Assembly (NCBI RefSeq): GCF_000949635.1
Contig: NZ_BAFN01000001.1
Location: forward strand, 2,841,673-2,905,672
DNA: 64,000 nt
DNA from: Candidatus Brocadia sinica JPN1
GTDB lineage: Bacteria; Planctomycetota; Brocadiia; Brocadiales; Brocadiaceae
Direction of reading: 5' to 3'
The position numbers were made by a program, and so were the translations under genes. The number at the start of each line of letters is the position of its first letter. Position 1 is the first letter of the stretch. The notes under the pieces are model-generated. The model worked only from the letters and a program-made list of their open reading frames with translations. It made no database searches and was not told the origin of the DNA. Positions 2,070 through 12,008 of the stretch are shown here, piece by piece.

Positions 2070-3156
2070 ATGTTATGTTTTTCAATGCAGCAATAAGCCG
2101 CATATTTTCATCCCTTGTCCTTACCGCTACTCGAAAATACTTATCATTAAGCCCCATAAAATTTGAACAATCGCGAATGGCGATACCATACTCCAATAGT
2201 CGTTCACGTAGCAAAGGAGAAGTCATACCGACTCTATTTATTTTGATAAAGATATAATTGACCGTTGGTTTGTAAGGCAAAAGCCCATGAATATCGGCTA
2301 ATTCGTTGAATAAATACAATCGCTCCTGTAGCATAAATTCTCTGCTTCTCGAAATAAATTCTTCGTCTTCTATAGCGACCCTTGCAGCATATTGGGCTAA
2401 AGTATTCACAGACCACGGTTCCTTGTATTCCGTCATTTTTTTTACTAAATCCACATGGGCAACAAGATATCCTATCCTCAAGCCGGGAAAGCCATAAAAT
2501 TTTGTAAGTGATCTGACTACAATTAAATTACGCACTGTACCAGCATCATTGATAACACTGTATCTTTCCGGTGTATCAACAAAATCCATAAATGCCTCAT
2601 CCACAACGAATATTATATCCGGATGTTGCCTTGCCATATTTACTATGACGGTCTTTTCTACCAGTTGCCCTGTAGGGTTGTTGGGATTACACAGAAAGAC
2701 CATCTCTGCTTTTTTGTCATCAAAATGGTCTTCTCGATAGGTAAAACAAAAATCTTCTTCCACCATCAGCATAGTATGAAGTACCTCTGCGTGGCTGCAT
2801 TTCAGCGCTTCAGCAAATTCGCTGAAGGTAGGCTGGAAAATAATCCCTTTGGCTGGTTTTATTGCACGGGGGATTAAATAAAACAACTCTGTTGAGCCAT
2901 TTCCTACGATGATTTCGTCTTCTGAATGCCTGATTTTTTGGGTAATACATTTCCTCAGGCTGGAGCAATCAATATCGGGATAATGCAAAATATCGTCGAA
3001 ATTCTTCCAGATGATTTTTCGAACGTTTTCTGGGTATCCCAGAGGATTAATGCTTGCACTAAAGTCGAGTATCCCGTTGCTTCCCTTCCGTTTGCCAGCG
3101 CTACAAGGTAATTGACGAATAGTATGCTTTATATTTCCGCCGTGACCTTTAAACAT
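2059..3156 (-). CDS. cobD: Threonine-phosphate decarboxylase CobD-type, HisC-like aminotransferase fold
   Basis: PLP-dependent fold-type I enzyme expected to decarboxylate L-threonine-O-3-phosphate to (R)-1-amino-2-propanol phosphate, the linker of the nucleotide loop of B12. Visible motifs are FSASINPLGYP near residue 28, IIVGNGSTELFY, FLCNPNNPTGQ, VVDEAFMDF, and the PLP-lysine context VVRSLTKFYGFPGLRIGYL near residue 217. The 365-residue length fits CobD. Histidinol-phosphate aminotransferase is the close alternative, but the position between cbiO and cobQ decides for CobD. It overlaps cbiO by 8 bases and cobQ by 11 bases. Confidence 0.92.
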   Translation of the reverse strand: MFKGHGGNIKHTIRQLPCSAGKRKGSNGILDFSASINPLGYPENVRKIIWKNFDDILHYPDIDCSSLRKCITQKIRHSEDEIIVGNGSTELFYLIPRAIKPAKGIIFQPTFSEFAEALKCSHAEVLHTMLMVEEDFCFTYREDHFDDKKAEMVFLCNPNNPTGQLVEKTVIVNMARQHPDIIFVVDEAFMDFVDTPERYSVINDAGTVRNLIVVRSLTKFYGFPGLRIGYLVAHVDLVKKMTEYKEPWSVNTLAQYAARVAIEDEEFISRSREFMLQERLYLFNELADIHGLLPYKPTVNYIFIKINRVGMTSPLLRERLLEYGIAIRDCSNFMGLNDKYFRVAVRTRDENMRLIAALKNITYDK

Positions 3157-6466: not shown

Positions 6467-6630
6467 ATTAAATGTTTTTCAGTAATAAGGAGTGTAATTC
6501 TCAAAGTTCCTCATTTTTCCTTTGATTCTCTGTGATGAGAAATATAAAATACCGCCTAAACGGAACAGTTTGTGATGGTTTGAGATTTGGACTTTTGGGT
6601 AATTTTCTTGATAAAGGGGGTGTGATTCAC

Positions 6631-7785
6631 ATGGGATTAAAAAAGAACGTCCGTACGGTTTTTCTTCTCACTGCAATTCTCATTGCTATGATGGGATCAG
6701 GCTGTGCAATGTTTAAGAAGAGACCTCTCCTGGTGCCTCGAGAATCCGGGGATACCCTTGTAGAGATTACAGACCCCAATCAACTTCCCAAATTTCAGGA
6801 TGATTATAGCAGAGACTCCCTGTTGAGTTCGATAGATAACAGTCTCGACTATTTTAAAAGGGTTAAGGCCAATCCATATGGTTTTCATATGACAGGTTTT
6901 TCACATGAAAGTCTGGAAGATACCTTGAAGTTCTTTCGAGAGGGTTTCCTTCGTTGCAGAGACGCCGAGGAACTCAACGATTTTATTATTAAAAATTTCA
7001 GGGTTTTTCAGGCTATTGGAAAAGCTTATGAGGGTCAGGTGCATTTTACCGGTTATGGAACACCTATTTATGATGGAAGTCTTACGCTAACCGGGGAATT
7101 TCGTTACCCTCTTTATAAAATACCATCCGACTTTAAAAAACCTTATTATACACGACGTGAAATTGAGGAACGTGGCCTCTTAAAAGGAAATGAAATTGCC
7201 TATCTGAAATCAAAATTAGATGCCTATCTTATCCATGTTCAGGGATCAGGGCAAATCAAATTGCCATCGGGAGAGATGGTCTATGTGGGATATGGGGCAG
7301 ACTCGGGACACAAATACAACAGTATTGGACGCATGTTGGTCATGGATGGCAAGATTCCCGAAGAGGAATTAACCCTTTCTACGCTTATCAACTACTTTGA
7401 ACAACATCCCAATGAATTGGATTATTATCTCAGGAAAAATGATCGCTTTATCTTTTTCAAAAGAGTCAATTACGCTACCCCGTATGGTTCCATAGGCGTA
7501 CCTGTCACCCCGATGAGAAGTATTGCTACCGATAAGAAAGTCTTTCCTGCAGGTGGACTTGCCTTTTCTGTTATAGAACCAAAGAAGGCGAAGAAGACCT
7601 GGAAGTTTTGGGAAAAGGGGAAGAGTGAGGCAGGAAAATCCTTCTTTGTTCTGGATCAGGATACAGGAAGTGCGATACAAACTCCAGCCAGAGCCGATGT
7701 GTATTTTGGGATTGGAGACCAGGCCATGTATGAGGCGGGGAATTTGAATACCTTCGGTCAGCTCTATTATCTCCTGAGGCGATAG
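6631..7785 (+). CDS. mltA: MltA-like membrane-bound lytic transglycosylase lipoprotein
   Basis: Cleaves the MurNAc-GlcNAc bond of peptidoglycan with formation of 1,6-anhydroMurNAc, anchored to a membrane facing the periplasm. The chosen ATG at 6631 follows AAAGGGGGTG and begins a signal peptide ending in the lipobox region MGSGC; an upstream in-frame ATG at 6532 would only add 33 unlikely residues. MltA-domain motifs include FTGYGTPIYDGSLT, YLIHVQGSGQIKLPSGE and YVGYGADSGHKYNSIGRM. The C-terminal 3D domain shows PMRSIATDKKVFPAGGLAF and ADVYFGIGDQA with its conserved aspartate. Length is typical. It implies at least some peptidoglycan in this cell wall. Confidence 0.92.
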   Translation: MGLKKNVRTVFLLTAILIAMMGSGCAMFKKRPLLVPRESGDTLVEITDPNQLPKFQDDYSRDSLLSSIDNSLDYFKRVKANPYGFHMTGFSHESLEDTLKFFREGFLRCRDAEELNDFIIKNFRVFQAIGKAYEGQVHFTGYGTPIYDGSLTLTGEFRYPLYKIPSDFKKPYYTRREIEERGLLKGNEIAYLKSKLDAYLIHVQGSGQIKLPSGEMVYVGYGADSGHKYNSIGRMLVMDGKIPEEELTLSTLINYFEQHPNELDYYLRKNDRFIFFKRVNYATPYGSIGVPVTPMRSIATDKKVFPAGGLAFSVIEPKKAKKTWKFWEKGKSEAGKSFFVLDQDTGSAIQTPARADVYFGIGDQAMYEAGNLNTFGQLYYLLRR

Positions 7786-7806: not shown

Positions 7807-7835
7807 TTGACAATCTAAATATTTTTTGTTAATAA
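7807..7835 (+). promoter_or_regulatory. Promoter upstream of the first GEMM riboswitch
   Basis: TTGACA (7807-7812), a 17-base spacer and TAATAA (7830-7835). The predicted transcription start falls about 8 bases before the GEMM core, so the RNA starts right at the aptamer. Confidence 0.65.
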
Positions 7836-7842
7836 ACTATAG

Positions 7843-7924
7843 CGAAAAAGGCAAACCTTGGGTGATCAGGGGGCGCAAAGGAAAAGGGTCTTTACCCACC
7901 ACGGGAAGCTAGGACAATAAAGAT
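7843..7924 (+). promoter_or_regulatory. GEMM-I type cyclic-dinucleotide riboswitch, copy 1
   Basis: Conserved elements in order: AAAGGCAAACC, a short helix capped by a GTGA tetraloop, GGGCGCAAAG, then GGGTCTTTACCC and ACGGGAAGCTAGG. This matches the c-di-GMP-I aptamer layout (GGCAAACC, GNRA loop, GACGCAAAG, then the second helix with its tetraloop receptor). A strong terminator follows directly. Whether the ligand is c-di-GMP or 3',3'-cGAMP cannot be decided by eye. Confidence 0.78.
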
Positions 7925-7967
7925 AGCCTTACTGCCAAAAGATATTTTAGTAGTAAGGCTTTTTTTA
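7925..7967 (+). terminator. Intrinsic terminator following GEMM copy 1
   Basis: Stem AGCCTTACT (7925-7933) with AGTAAGGCT (7952-7960), then a run of T. It directly follows the aptamer and is the probable expression platform; read-through would continue toward the DUF11 genes. Confidence 0.85.
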
Positions 7968-8012
7968 TCCAGTAAATAAACAAAACTAAAAAAGAATCTA
8001 AAAATATAAAAC

Positions 8013-8038
8013 AATTTGTCTAATGTATTAGACAAATT
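8013..8038. promoter_or_regulatory. Perfect 26-bp palindrome, candidate operator
   Basis: AATTTGTCTAAT, then GT, then ATTAGACAAATT: two exact 12-base arms in an AT-rich gap with no gene. There is no T-run, so it is not a terminator. The symmetry suits a dimeric transcription factor. The rest of 7968-8315 holds no recognisable gene. Confidence 0.45.
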
Positions 8039-8317
8039 TGCAAAAAAGTAAAGAAGGAATGAAGATATAAAAGAAATTTTTTATGGAAAATCATGAAAAA
8101 TCTCTTTGATTTTTTAATCATTACAATAAACATAAGTGTTTGTGATTAAGCCTATTACGTAAATATTAATTCAGGATGCTCCAGTTTGCTCAAATTAATA
8201 AAAAGGCATGGTGTTTAATATTTTGATCATTAAGTGAATTAGTGGAATGTAATTTGTGCATTTCATAATACTACGAAAAAAGGCATCAGTTTAATTTTCA
8301 GAATAAGTTTTAGCGAA

Positions 8318-8412
8318 TGTTAAGAAAAAGGCGAGCCCTGAGCAATTAGGGGAAGCGAGTTAAAGGGTCTTTTACTTACAGGGATGTGGGATAGGAAAGA
8401 CAGCCTTACGGT
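8318..8412 (+). promoter_or_regulatory. Diverged GEMM-like RNA element, copy 2
   Basis: This follows copy 1 block by block: AAAAAGGCGAGCC (copy 1 AAAAAGGCAAACC), AGGGGAAGCGAG (copy 1 AGGGGGCGCAAAG), AAAGGGTCTTTTAC (copy 1 AAAGGGTCTTTAC), and AAAGACAGCCTTAC (copy 1 AAAGATAGCCTTAC). Several core ligand-contact bases differ, so it may bind another ligand or be decaying. It lies about 160 bases before the first OmcB-like gene. Confidence 0.6.
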
Positions 8413-8570
8413 TGAAGGTGTTTCATAAATAAATATTTTTTGCAGCAAGGTTTTATTATCAATAATCAAAAAGGCAATCCGTGTATCCGCATTAACCATG
8501 TATTTAGCTATAATTGAGATGCATTCGTGCTGAAGATCGTAAGACCCTTATTTTAGAAAAGGAGGATTAG

Positions 8571-10187
8571 ATGGGAGGGAAGAATAAGATGTATAAATCG
8601 TTATTTATTTCTGGCATTCTGGCATTTACTCTTTACGGGTGCGGAACTTTTAAATTTGAAACTGGTGTTGATCATGAGAAAGAGAAAGGGCCACACTATC
8701 ATGGACATGTTGAAGGGGAACCACCACCAAGGCATCTGCGTGGTCATGTTCATGAGCCAGAACCACCAAAATCAGACATGTGTGTTACAGATGGGGCGTA
8801 TCCCACAAATGACAAGGATTGTTGCAGTGTAGTTTATCTGCAAAAAATGGGGCCATGCTCTGGGCGTGTTGGTCAGGAATACTGTTATACGGTAAAAGCT
8901 ACTAACCTTACCAAGAGAAAAGTTAAAGATGTTGAAGTTGTTCAGACCCTTCCAAAGAATTTTGAGATAAAAAGTTCTGATCCTGAAATGGGAAGCGGAA
9001 GCGGCGGGGGTGTGGCAAAATGGTTCCTCGGAGAGCTTGGGCCTGAGGAGACGAAAGAAATTCATGTGTGCGGTGTTCCGACGCAAAGCGGAAATATGCC
9101 ATTCTGTACTGATGTGACATATAAATTACCGGAACTCTGTTTGGATCCGCTTATTACGGAACCGAAGGTGACTATTGCCAAGCGTGCACCATCTGAAGTT
9201 CTGCTCTGCGATATGATACCAGTGACTTTTGTGGTAACCAACACGGGTACAGGACTTGCGACCAATGTTAAGGTTCGGGAATCATTGCCACAAGGCCTGA
9301 AGGCTCAGGATGGTAAAACTGATGTAGAGTTAGACGTTGGCTCATTAAAACCTGGAGAGTCGAGAGAGGTAACATTAACGGTTCAGGCAGAAAAGACAGG
9401 TACGTTTAACAATAGTGCGACGGTAGTTGCAGAAGGTGGTTTAAGTGCAGAATCCAATACAACCACAACCACAGTAAAACAGCCGGTGCTTACGATCGCA
9501 AAAACCGGACCTGATAAGGTATTTTTGGGACGCAATATCAGTTACGATATTGTTGTAACGAATGAGGGTGATGGAGTGGCGGCTGCAACGATTATTGAGG
9601 ATGCTATACCTGCAAACACATCAGTTGCAAGCGCAACCGAAGGAGCTATGATGTCAGGTAGCATAGTCACATGGAATTTGGGAACCTTACAGCCGCAGGA
9701 TTCAAGGAAGGTTCGTGTGACTTTTACACCAAGAGATATTGGTGTAGTGAAAAACACGGCAACGGTAAAGGCTAACTGCGCTGAGGCAGTGTCCGCATCG
9801 GCATCCACTGAAGTATCGGGTATTGCTGCAATCCTGCTTGAAGTAATCGATGTGGAGGATCCAATTGAGGTAGGTGGTAACGAGACTTACGTAATTACAG
9901 TAACCAATCAGGGTTCTGAGACGGGTACTGGCATCAAGGTTACCTGCGTGCTTGAGGATACAATGCAATATGTATCTTCTTCTGGACCGACAAATGCGGC
10001 AGTCTCTGCGGACGGCAAGACGATAACCTTTGAATCTTTGCCAACCCTTGCATCAAAGGCAAAAGCAACTTGGAATGTTGTTGTTAAGGCATTAAGTGAA
10101 GGAGATACCCGTTTCAAAGTTACCATGAGTGAGGATTGCCTGACGAGACCTGTCGAAGAGACTGAGGCTACACACTTCTATAAGTAA
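8571..10187 (+). CDS. OmcB-like cysteine-rich DUF11-repeat surface lipoprotein, copy 1
   Basis: A 538-residue envelope protein. The start at 8571 follows AAAAGGAGGATTAG. The signal peptide ends in the lipobox region FTLYGC, so it is probably a lipoprotein. A His/Pro/Glu-rich stretch (HYHGHVEGEPPPRHLRGHVH) precedes four DUF11-type immunoglobulin-like repeats, each with a core such as VTFVVTNTG or ISYDIVVTNEG. The layout resembles chlamydial OmcB, a disulfide-crosslinked envelope protein. About 12 cysteines follow the lipobox, including a CC pair near residue 84, compatible with disulfide crosslinking. The structural role in the envelope is inferred. It is probably governed by the upstream GEMM elements. 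Confidence 0.85.
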   Translation: MGGKNKMYKSLFISGILAFTLYGCGTFKFETGVDHEKEKGPHYHGHVEGEPPPRHLRGHVHEPEPPKSDMCVTDGAYPTNDKDCCSVVYLQKMGPCSGRVGQEYCYTVKATNLTKRKVKDVEVVQTLPKNFEIKSSDPEMGSGSGGGVAKWFLGELGPEETKEIHVCGVPTQSGNMPFCTDVTYKLPELCLDPLITEPKVTIAKRAPSEVLLCDMIPVTFVVTNTGTGLATNVKVRESLPQGLKAQDGKTDVELDVGSLKPGESREVTLTVQAEKTGTFNNSATVVAEGGLSAESNTTTTTVKQPVLTIAKTGPDKVFLGRNISYDIVVTNEGDGVAAATIIEDAIPANTSVASATEGAMMSGSIVTWNLGTLQPQDSRKVRVTFTPRDIGVVKNTATVKANCAEAVSASASTEVSGIAAILLEVIDVEDPIEVGGNETYVITVTNQGSETGTGIKVTCVLEDTMQYVSSSGPTNAAVSADGKTITFESLPTLASKAKATWNVVVKALSEGDTRFKVTMSEDCLTRPVEETEATHFYK

Positions 10188-10406: not shown

Positions 10407-12008
10407 ATGGGTTACTGGAAAAGATGTTATACGTTGTTGCTTTTGATTCTCATGGGCACGTCTTGTATGTATGGTTGTCGTTATCAAGAAGGTGCTTTTA
10501 TACATGATAAACCGCCGTATTACCACGGGCATGTAGAGAATGAACCAGGATACAGACATGAAAGCATGCATCAACGCGGTGAGACAAAAGCGGTTTATGA
10601 AACAAGTGAAACTGATAAAATATTTTCTACAAGCAGGAAAGAGTATGGAGTTGTTTCTATAGAAAAGGATGCGCCCGCTGAAATCCAGGTTGGTAAATTA
10701 TTTAATTATACCATTAAAATTACTAATCATACTGGCGAAAAAATAAAAAATGTTGAAGTCACCGAGACTTTTTCCCATAAGTATGATCTAAGAGGTTCTA
10801 TTCCAAAGGTGGAGAAGGAGGCCAGAGAGGGCATGGCAAAATGGTCTATAGGAGATTTAAATCCGGCAGAGACGAAGACAATACGGATTACCGGCGTGCC
10901 CCTGGAAACCGGGGATGTGCCGTTTTGTACAGATGTGGCATATAACTTACCGCCACTTTGTAATATAACAAATGCCGTGGAACCAAAATTAACTATTGCC
11001 AAGAGCGCTCCGAAAGAGGTTTTGCTTTGTGATACAATACCAATAAACCTGGTGGTAACAAATACGGGCACGGGTGTTGCGCAAAATTTGCAGATAAAAG
11101 ATTCGTTAGCTCCCGGATTGAGGACGGTGGATGGTAAAAATGACATAGTTCAGGAAATTGGTATTTTAAAGCCGGGAGAATCGAGAGAAATTGCCTTGTC
11201 TGTTAAGGCAGACAAAACAGGAAAGTTTAGTAACACCGCAACAGTTGTTGCTGAAGGTGGGTTGCGTGCAGAATCTAATACTGTCACGACTATTGTAAAG
11301 CAACCGTTACTTACTATCAGAAAAAGAGGGCCAGAAAGGATTTATACAGGCCGAAATATTACTTACAATATTGATGTAAGCAATAAAGGTGATGGGCCTG
11401 CGGCATCAGCAATCATTGAAGATATAATACCGGGGAATGCTTCCTTTGTAAGTGCTAGCCAAGGTGGTATATTCGCTGGTAATACCGTAACATGGAATTT
11501 GGGAACCTTGCAGCCACGAGATTCAAGAAAAGTTAGTGTGACTCTGAAGGATAAGGGGCTTGGTGTAGTAAAAAATATTGCTACCGTTAAGGCTGTCTGT
11601 GCAGCGCCAGTTTCGGCGTCAGCAACCACGCAAGTGTTGGGTATTGCTGCAATCCTGCTTGAGGTAATCGATGTAGAAGACCCAATCGAGGTTGGTGATA
11701 ACGAGACTTATGTAATTACGGTAACCAATCAGGGTTCTGAGACAGGAACTAATATAAAGGTTGTTTGTATGCTAGAGGATACAATGCAATATGTCTCATC
11801 GTCTGGTCCTACAACCGGAACAGTCTCTGTTGATGGCAAGACGGTAACCTTTGATCCATTACCTACTCTCGCATCAAAGGCAAACACATCATGGAAAGTC
11901 GTTGTTAAGGCATTAGATACCGGGGATGTTCGCTTTAAAGTTAATATGATTGAGGATTGTCTGAAAAGGCCAGTTGAAGAGACTGAGGCGACAAACTTCT
12001 ATAAATAG
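10407..12008 (+). CDS. OmcB-like DUF11-repeat surface lipoprotein, copy 2
   Basis: A 533-residue tandem paralogue of the preceding gene. The start is set by GAAAGGAGTAAAGT. The lipobox region is SCMYGC, followed by the same PPYYHGHVENEP-type histidine-rich segment and four DUF11 repeats. The last repeat is almost identical to copy 1 (shared GIAAILLEVIDVEDPIEV and RPVEETEAT), whereas the first repeat has diverged and lost the cysteines: only about 6 remain after the lipobox, against about 12 in copy 1. Similar envelope role, but probably a different crosslinking capacity. It arose by tandem duplication. Confidence 0.85.
   Translation: MGYWKRCYTLLLLILMGTSCMYGCRYQEGAFIHDKPPYYHGHVENEPGYRHESMHQRGETKAVYETSETDKIFSTSRKEYGVVSIEKDAPAEIQVGKLFNYTIKITNHTGEKIKNVEVTETFSHKYDLRGSIPKVEKEAREGMAKWSIGDLNPAETKTIRITGVPLETGDVPFCTDVAYNLPPLCNITNAVEPKLTIAKSAPKEVLLCDTIPINLVVTNTGTGVAQNLQIKDSLAPGLRTVDGKNDIVQEIGILKPGESREIALSVKADKTGKFSNTATVVAEGGLRAESNTVTTIVKQPLLTIRKRGPERIYTGRNITYNIDVSNKGDGPAASAIIEDIIPGNASFVSASQGGIFAGNTVTWNLGTLQPRDSRKVSVTLKDKGLGVVKNIATVKAVCAAPVSASATTQVLGIAAILLEVIDVEDPIEVGDNETYVITVTNQGSETGTNIKVVCMLEDTMQYVSSSGPTTGTVSVDGKTVTFDPLPTLASKANTSWKVVVKALDTGDVRFKVNMIEDCLKRPVEETEATNFYK

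Follow-up and report, generated by a model that had tools for sequence, protein, structure and literature searches.

The region upstream of a gene for a DUF11-repeat surface protein in Candidatus Brocadia sinica JPN1 contains two GEMM-I RNAs in series, of which the first (copy 1) is quite probably a working c-di-GMP-I riboswitch of the ON type, and the second (copy 2) an orphaned, decayed unit that would be passed through passively. The window, that is, the whole stretch of 64,000 nucleotides that was analysed, belongs to a 4.08-Mb genome (G000) in 3 contigs with 100% completeness. The features of the region are as follows:

6532 to 7785, + strand: upstream neighbour, MltA-type lytic transglycosylase with a 3D domain (Pfam MltA, 5.8e-43)
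7807 to 7836, + strand: likely promoter of copy 1 (sequence and conservation)
7840 to 7939, + strand: copy 1, c-di-GMP-I (GEMM-I) riboswitch aptamer (RF01051 match, intact G20/A47/C92 core)
7925 to 7967, + strand: intrinsic terminator 1 (hairpin and T-run)
8320 to 8416, + strand: copy 2, degenerate GEMM-I aptamer (62.5 bits with a lineage model; below the cut-off of RF03167)
8402 to 8452, + strand: decayed terminator 2 (stem interrupted, an A breaks the T-run)
8571 to 10187, + strand: the gene taken to be controlled, for a 538-aa DUF11-repeat (OmcB-like) surface protein with a lipobox-like LYGC (Pfam DUF11)
10407 to 12008, + strand: second DUF11 paralogue, 58% identical to the first (Pfam and sequence comparison)

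Both GEMM RNAs lie on the + strand between the MltA gene and the first DUF11 gene, the product of which matched Pfam DUF11 in four stretches (1.3e-43). A GEMM-I RNA ahead of an OmcB-like surface-protein gene had been proposed in the original prediction, and the RF01051 and Pfam matches bear this out, as does the pairing of RNA and gene, which is conserved across the genus. A terminator-like hairpin is situated between the two DUF11 genes. No orthologous DUF11 protein was found in the viral contigs searched, nor the locus in the plasmids searched. In other Brocadia species, the last ~120 nt 5' of the DUF11 gene hold a conserved leader (AGCTGC..GCAGCAAAGGAG..CTCCTTGA; L146, L147, L148, L149, L150 and L151) with two likely hairpins, which scored below the cut-off of every Rfam family; within the genus, five genomes have this pattern, in each case at the DUF11 locus alone, and the leader is diverged in G000 and in its nearest relative, G009. 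A cobalamin riboswitch (89.9 bits) was also detected in the window at 6404-6173 on the - strand, 5' of transporter-like and cobalamin-synthesis-like ORFs of that strand.

In the Rfam search of the whole window, copy 1 reached 48.5 bits (E 2e-6) with RF01051 (c-di-GMP-I), whose gathering score is 35. It contains both GGCAAACC and GCGCAAAG, and its ligand pocket is formed by G20, A47 and C92 (numbering of the Vc2 aptamer, assigned here via alignment). Of the 46 positions that reach 94% conservation or more among the genome's 56 other GEMM RNAs, none (0/46) is changed in copy 1. Upstream, TTGACA at 7807-7812 is followed 17-18 nt downstream by TAATAA/AATAAA at 7830-7836, with a promoter score of 10.25 (95% point of the null, 9.5). 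A stricter promoter scan did not list this promoter, the -10 hexamer of which is off consensus; TTGACA is nevertheless kept ahead of the GEMM RNA of the orthologous gene in G002, G003, G004, G007, G008, G009 and G010, and it is this conservation, rather than the scan, that makes the promoter likely. Downstream, the hairpin at 7925-7960 (-17.5 kcal/mol) is followed by TTTTTT; the 3' strand of aptamer helix P3 serves as its 5' arm, and the terminator forms in the predicted fold of the leader without ligand. The canonical core and terminator that had been attributed to copy 1 from the sequence are retained here, as is its own promoter as a likely one. Since the 3' strand of P3 is common to aptamer and intrinsic terminator, copy 1 should be a transcription ON switch.

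The ligand expected for copy 1 is c-di-GMP. G20 is present in copy 1 and in 54 of the genome's 56 other GEMM RNAs, the remaining two having A and T, and it is the form associated with c-di-GMP, with c-AMP-GMP aptamers reported to be altered at position 20 (PMC9481103, PMC6274999); because G20 is kept, c-di-GMP and not cGAMP would be the ligand. Furthermore, 17 GGDEF domains are encoded in the genome. Either c-di-GMP or cGAMP had originally been proposed; the first stands, and cGAMP sensing was rejected, as base 20 is G and not A in both copies.

According to the mechanism proposed, the 3' strand of P3 would pair into the terminator at 7925-7960 in the absence of ligand and transcription would stop, while in the c-di-GMP-bound RNA that strand would be retained by P3 and the core, and RNA polymerase would reach the DUF11 gene. 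The polymerase would then read through copy 2, as its terminator has decayed along with its sensor, the sensing core having been lost through A47G, C92U, C44A, A23G and A25G. For the ligand, the direction of control and the loss of function of copy 2, we infer from established knowledge of the class.

Copy 2 begins 480 bases after copy 1, and an AT-rich spacer of 380 nt separates the two aptamers. It scored below the cut-off of every Rfam family and was recovered neither in the gathering-score scan of the window nor in the RF01051 search of the genome. The best family, in a search of 821 bases, was RF03167 (c-di-GMP-I-GGC) at 8321-8416, with 35.8 bits against the 59 required (E 1.3e-6); the covariance-model comparison that had been suggested for the pair thus placed copy 1 above its threshold and copy 2 below. 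A lineage covariance model was constructed from 26 of the genome's GEMM RNAs, both window copies being left out, and gave 62.5 bits for copy 2 (E 1.6e-13) and 77 bits for copy 1, the best chance match reaching ~16 bits. Copy 2 is therefore a true but diverged descendant of the GEMM family, given a lineage-model score so far above chance.

The altered core that had been noticed in copy 2 was confirmed as GGCGAGCC and GAAGCGAG, and CTGCC is additionally replaced by CGGTT. Ten of the 46 conserved positions are changed, among them A23G, A25G, C44A, A47G, C92U and C93U, compared with none in copy 1 (Fisher p 0.001). A23, A25, C44, A47 and C93 are each found in 56/56 of the other GEMM RNAs of the genome, and C92 in 55/56. 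The pocket of copy 2 is thus G47, U92 and U93. Terminator 2 has a mismatched stem of -10.8 kcal/mol, against ~-28 for most other GEMM terminators of the genome, and a T-run interrupted after four. On the other hand, P2, the GNRA loop, most of P3, G20, A48 and G83 are retained, features that speak against a relic: copy 2 is not erased.

That these differences arose from assembly or sequencing errors is scarcely credible; no support for it was found, the ten substitutions are scattered and indels do not cluster there, the assembly has 3 contigs and 100% completeness, and the orthologous locus of G009 likewise departs from the genus consensus. Another reading, rather improbable, is a tandem c-di-GMP switch in which copy 2 has kept weak binding of c-di-GMP and the two units together make the response steeper. 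Doublets of c-di-GMP-I aptamers are common (347 reported) and are thought to sharpen responses (PMC9481103), and the pair is retained in two species. However, A47 and C92 are both altered in copy 2: A47 is stacked between both ligand guanines and its mutation reportedly abolishes binding, and a G20A/C92U aptamer passes from a KD of 0.011 nM to ~4900 nM (PMC9049102). Moreover, terminator 2 is too weak, and lacks the U-run, for a second gate.

Comparison with related genomes points to a decaying relic as the best reading of copy 2, rather than to a new ligand class. Where the upstream region of the DUF11 gene was read in other Brocadia genomes, one GEMM RNA with its terminator precedes the gene; the single GEMM RNAs of G002 and G010 are eroded, with 7/46 and 9/46 positions changed, respectively. 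Among the genomes examined, the pair is found at the same place only in G009, whose protein is 84% identical, so that copy 2 would already have been present in the common ancestor of both. An origin of copy 2 by recent tandem duplication of copy 1 was discarded, each copy being nearest to its own G009 orthologue; copy 2 is also closer to other GEMM RNAs of the genome than to copy 1.

Copy 2 of G009 keeps A47 and C92, with 4/46 positions changed and a terminator with a perfect stem and T7. Its copy 1 carries C46U and A47G (8/46 changed) next to a terminator that is still strong (L145:9961-10639). With the aptamer damaged and the terminator live, the gene should be silent unless there is a promoter between the copies or the aptamer still works; in G009, then, either the copy 1 aptamer would be functional or the gene would be driven from between the copies. 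The best promoter matches between the copies were at the level of shuffled sequence in both species, and a second promoter there was dropped on these grounds. A clean swap of the copy in use between G000 and G009 is not claimed.

At fourfold sites of the two flanking genes, G000 and G009 differ by 25%, or ~0.13-0.15 per lineage. At a rate of 0.15, the probability of at least nine changes among 46 positions is 0.25, and that of zero changes 0.0006. An unchanged core is thus improbable at the neutral rate, so that copy 1 is under selection in G000, while the changes of copy 2 fit that rate and selection on it is not detectable; copy 2 changes at the rate expected of unconstrained DNA.

Of the two fates that had been suggested for copy 2, a changed ligand or a relic, the second is favoured because core and terminator decay together at an approximately neutral rate, because copy 2 of G009 has A47, C92 and a terminator, and because the first pattern search in 59 related genomes returned no GEMM RNA with G47 against 52 with A47, a sample and not a census, as the pattern was too strict in prescribing one base of P2 as well. 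It is highly unlikely that copy 2 is a functional variant (G20/G47/U92) for another ligand and that the pair works as a two-input switch. The helices and loop are mostly retained, G47 is seen in G009 copy 1 too, and Rfam contains a G47 family, RF03167, which is the best Rfam match of copy 2; assignment to that family was nonetheless rejected, as copy 2 falls short of its cut-off and lacks its C92. In addition, the tertiary positions A23, A25 and C44 and the terminator are altered as well, the variant pocket is not conserved in the G009 orthologue, and that sample of related genomes gave no G47 aptamer. The presence of A47G in both species is unsurprising, since ~1.7 overlaps are expected from 10 and 8 changes in 46 positions. 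Each species thus has one A47 and one G47 copy; if the G47 copy bound another dinucleotide, this would amount to a two-input gate with its order swapped between sister Brocadia species, for which the chance is very slim.

A relic beside one riboswitch that is kept would show, for the pair alone, that a low-scoring "variant" aptamer can be a decaying neighbour. The wider context weighs more: the pair is ordinary-looking, and the unusually large GEMM set of the genome is the more notable point. About 58 GEMM-I RNAs were located in this one Candidatus Brocadia genome (loci L097-L144 and the window), 55 above the RF01051 cut-off and the rest through RF03167 and the lineage model, a count that may be a lower bound, as the first look scored 150 of 390 candidates. 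With a stricter setting, 19-56 GEMM-I RNAs per genome were obtained within the genus and 1-28 in the family's other genera, and in the rest of the phylum the genomes with matches had mostly 1-5; Geobacter sulfurreducens has 17 (PMC8835794). The large set was unreported in the papers searched on anammox together with riboswitches or c-di-GMP, a search outside which most subscription journals lie.

At least 54 of the 58 RNAs share the layout in which the 3' strand of P3 (AGCCTTACTGCC) doubles as the 5' arm of a terminator, so that ligand binding should permit readthrough. The 58 downstream genes were assigned with a simple ORF criterion, and some of these assignments, though few, may be wrong; roughly counted, 35 of the genes begin with a signal- or membrane-like segment. 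Their families include LamG, Big, PKD, beta-helix and RCC1 repeats, peptidoglycan amidases, two sigma-54 activators and a contractile-sheath protein. The set would thus be mostly of the ON type and mostly before genes of exported or surface proteins. These data suggest that anammox bacteria switch on many surface, adhesion and secretion genes by c-di-GMP via transcription termination, a control that would bear on anammox granule formation.

Several other members of the set were recorded. At L120:450-537 (C1:2104847), a diverged GEMM RNA with C92U and 7/46 positions changed precedes a PAS/GAF/GGDEF/EAL protein, where feedback on c-di-GMP turnover is possible. Two strong GEMM RNAs (L117:495-610 and 3003-3118) lie before a sigma-54 response regulator and a phage-tail-sheath-like protein, which suggests c-di-GMP control over a contractile injection-type system. 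Two of different make-up (L097:4060-4143 and L143:3981-4057), before large LamG proteins, have no convincing terminator and a start codon 36 nt downstream, and may act on translation. Those at L109:505-605 and L118:469-580 precede PqqD-like and radical-SAM proteins, which suggests c-di-GMP control of peptide-maturation genes.

With respect to known systems, copy 1 resembles c-di-GMP-I (GEMM-I, RF01051; e.g., Vc2) in its full conserved core, in P3 and a P2 closed by a GNRA loop, and in a terminator whose formation is incompatible with the bound fold, whereas copy 2 differs from it by the absence of A47, C92, C44, the A23/A25 adenines and the terminator. As in tandem c-di-GMP-I riboswitches (e.g., Bc3-5 of Bacillus thuringiensis; doublets in PMC9481103), two aptamer-plus-terminator units stand before one surface-protein gene; unlike them, a single unit is intact, the second core and terminator having decayed, and the AT-rich spacer is of 380 nt. 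Copy 2 shares G20 and G47 with c-di-GMP-I-GGC (RF03167), which it matches better than RF01051, but it lies 23 bits under the cut-off, with U92 for C92 and further core changes. The cGAMP (GEMM-Ib) riboswitches of Geobacter have the same fold and also control surface and electron-transfer genes, but differ at the selectivity position 20, which is G here and A in those.
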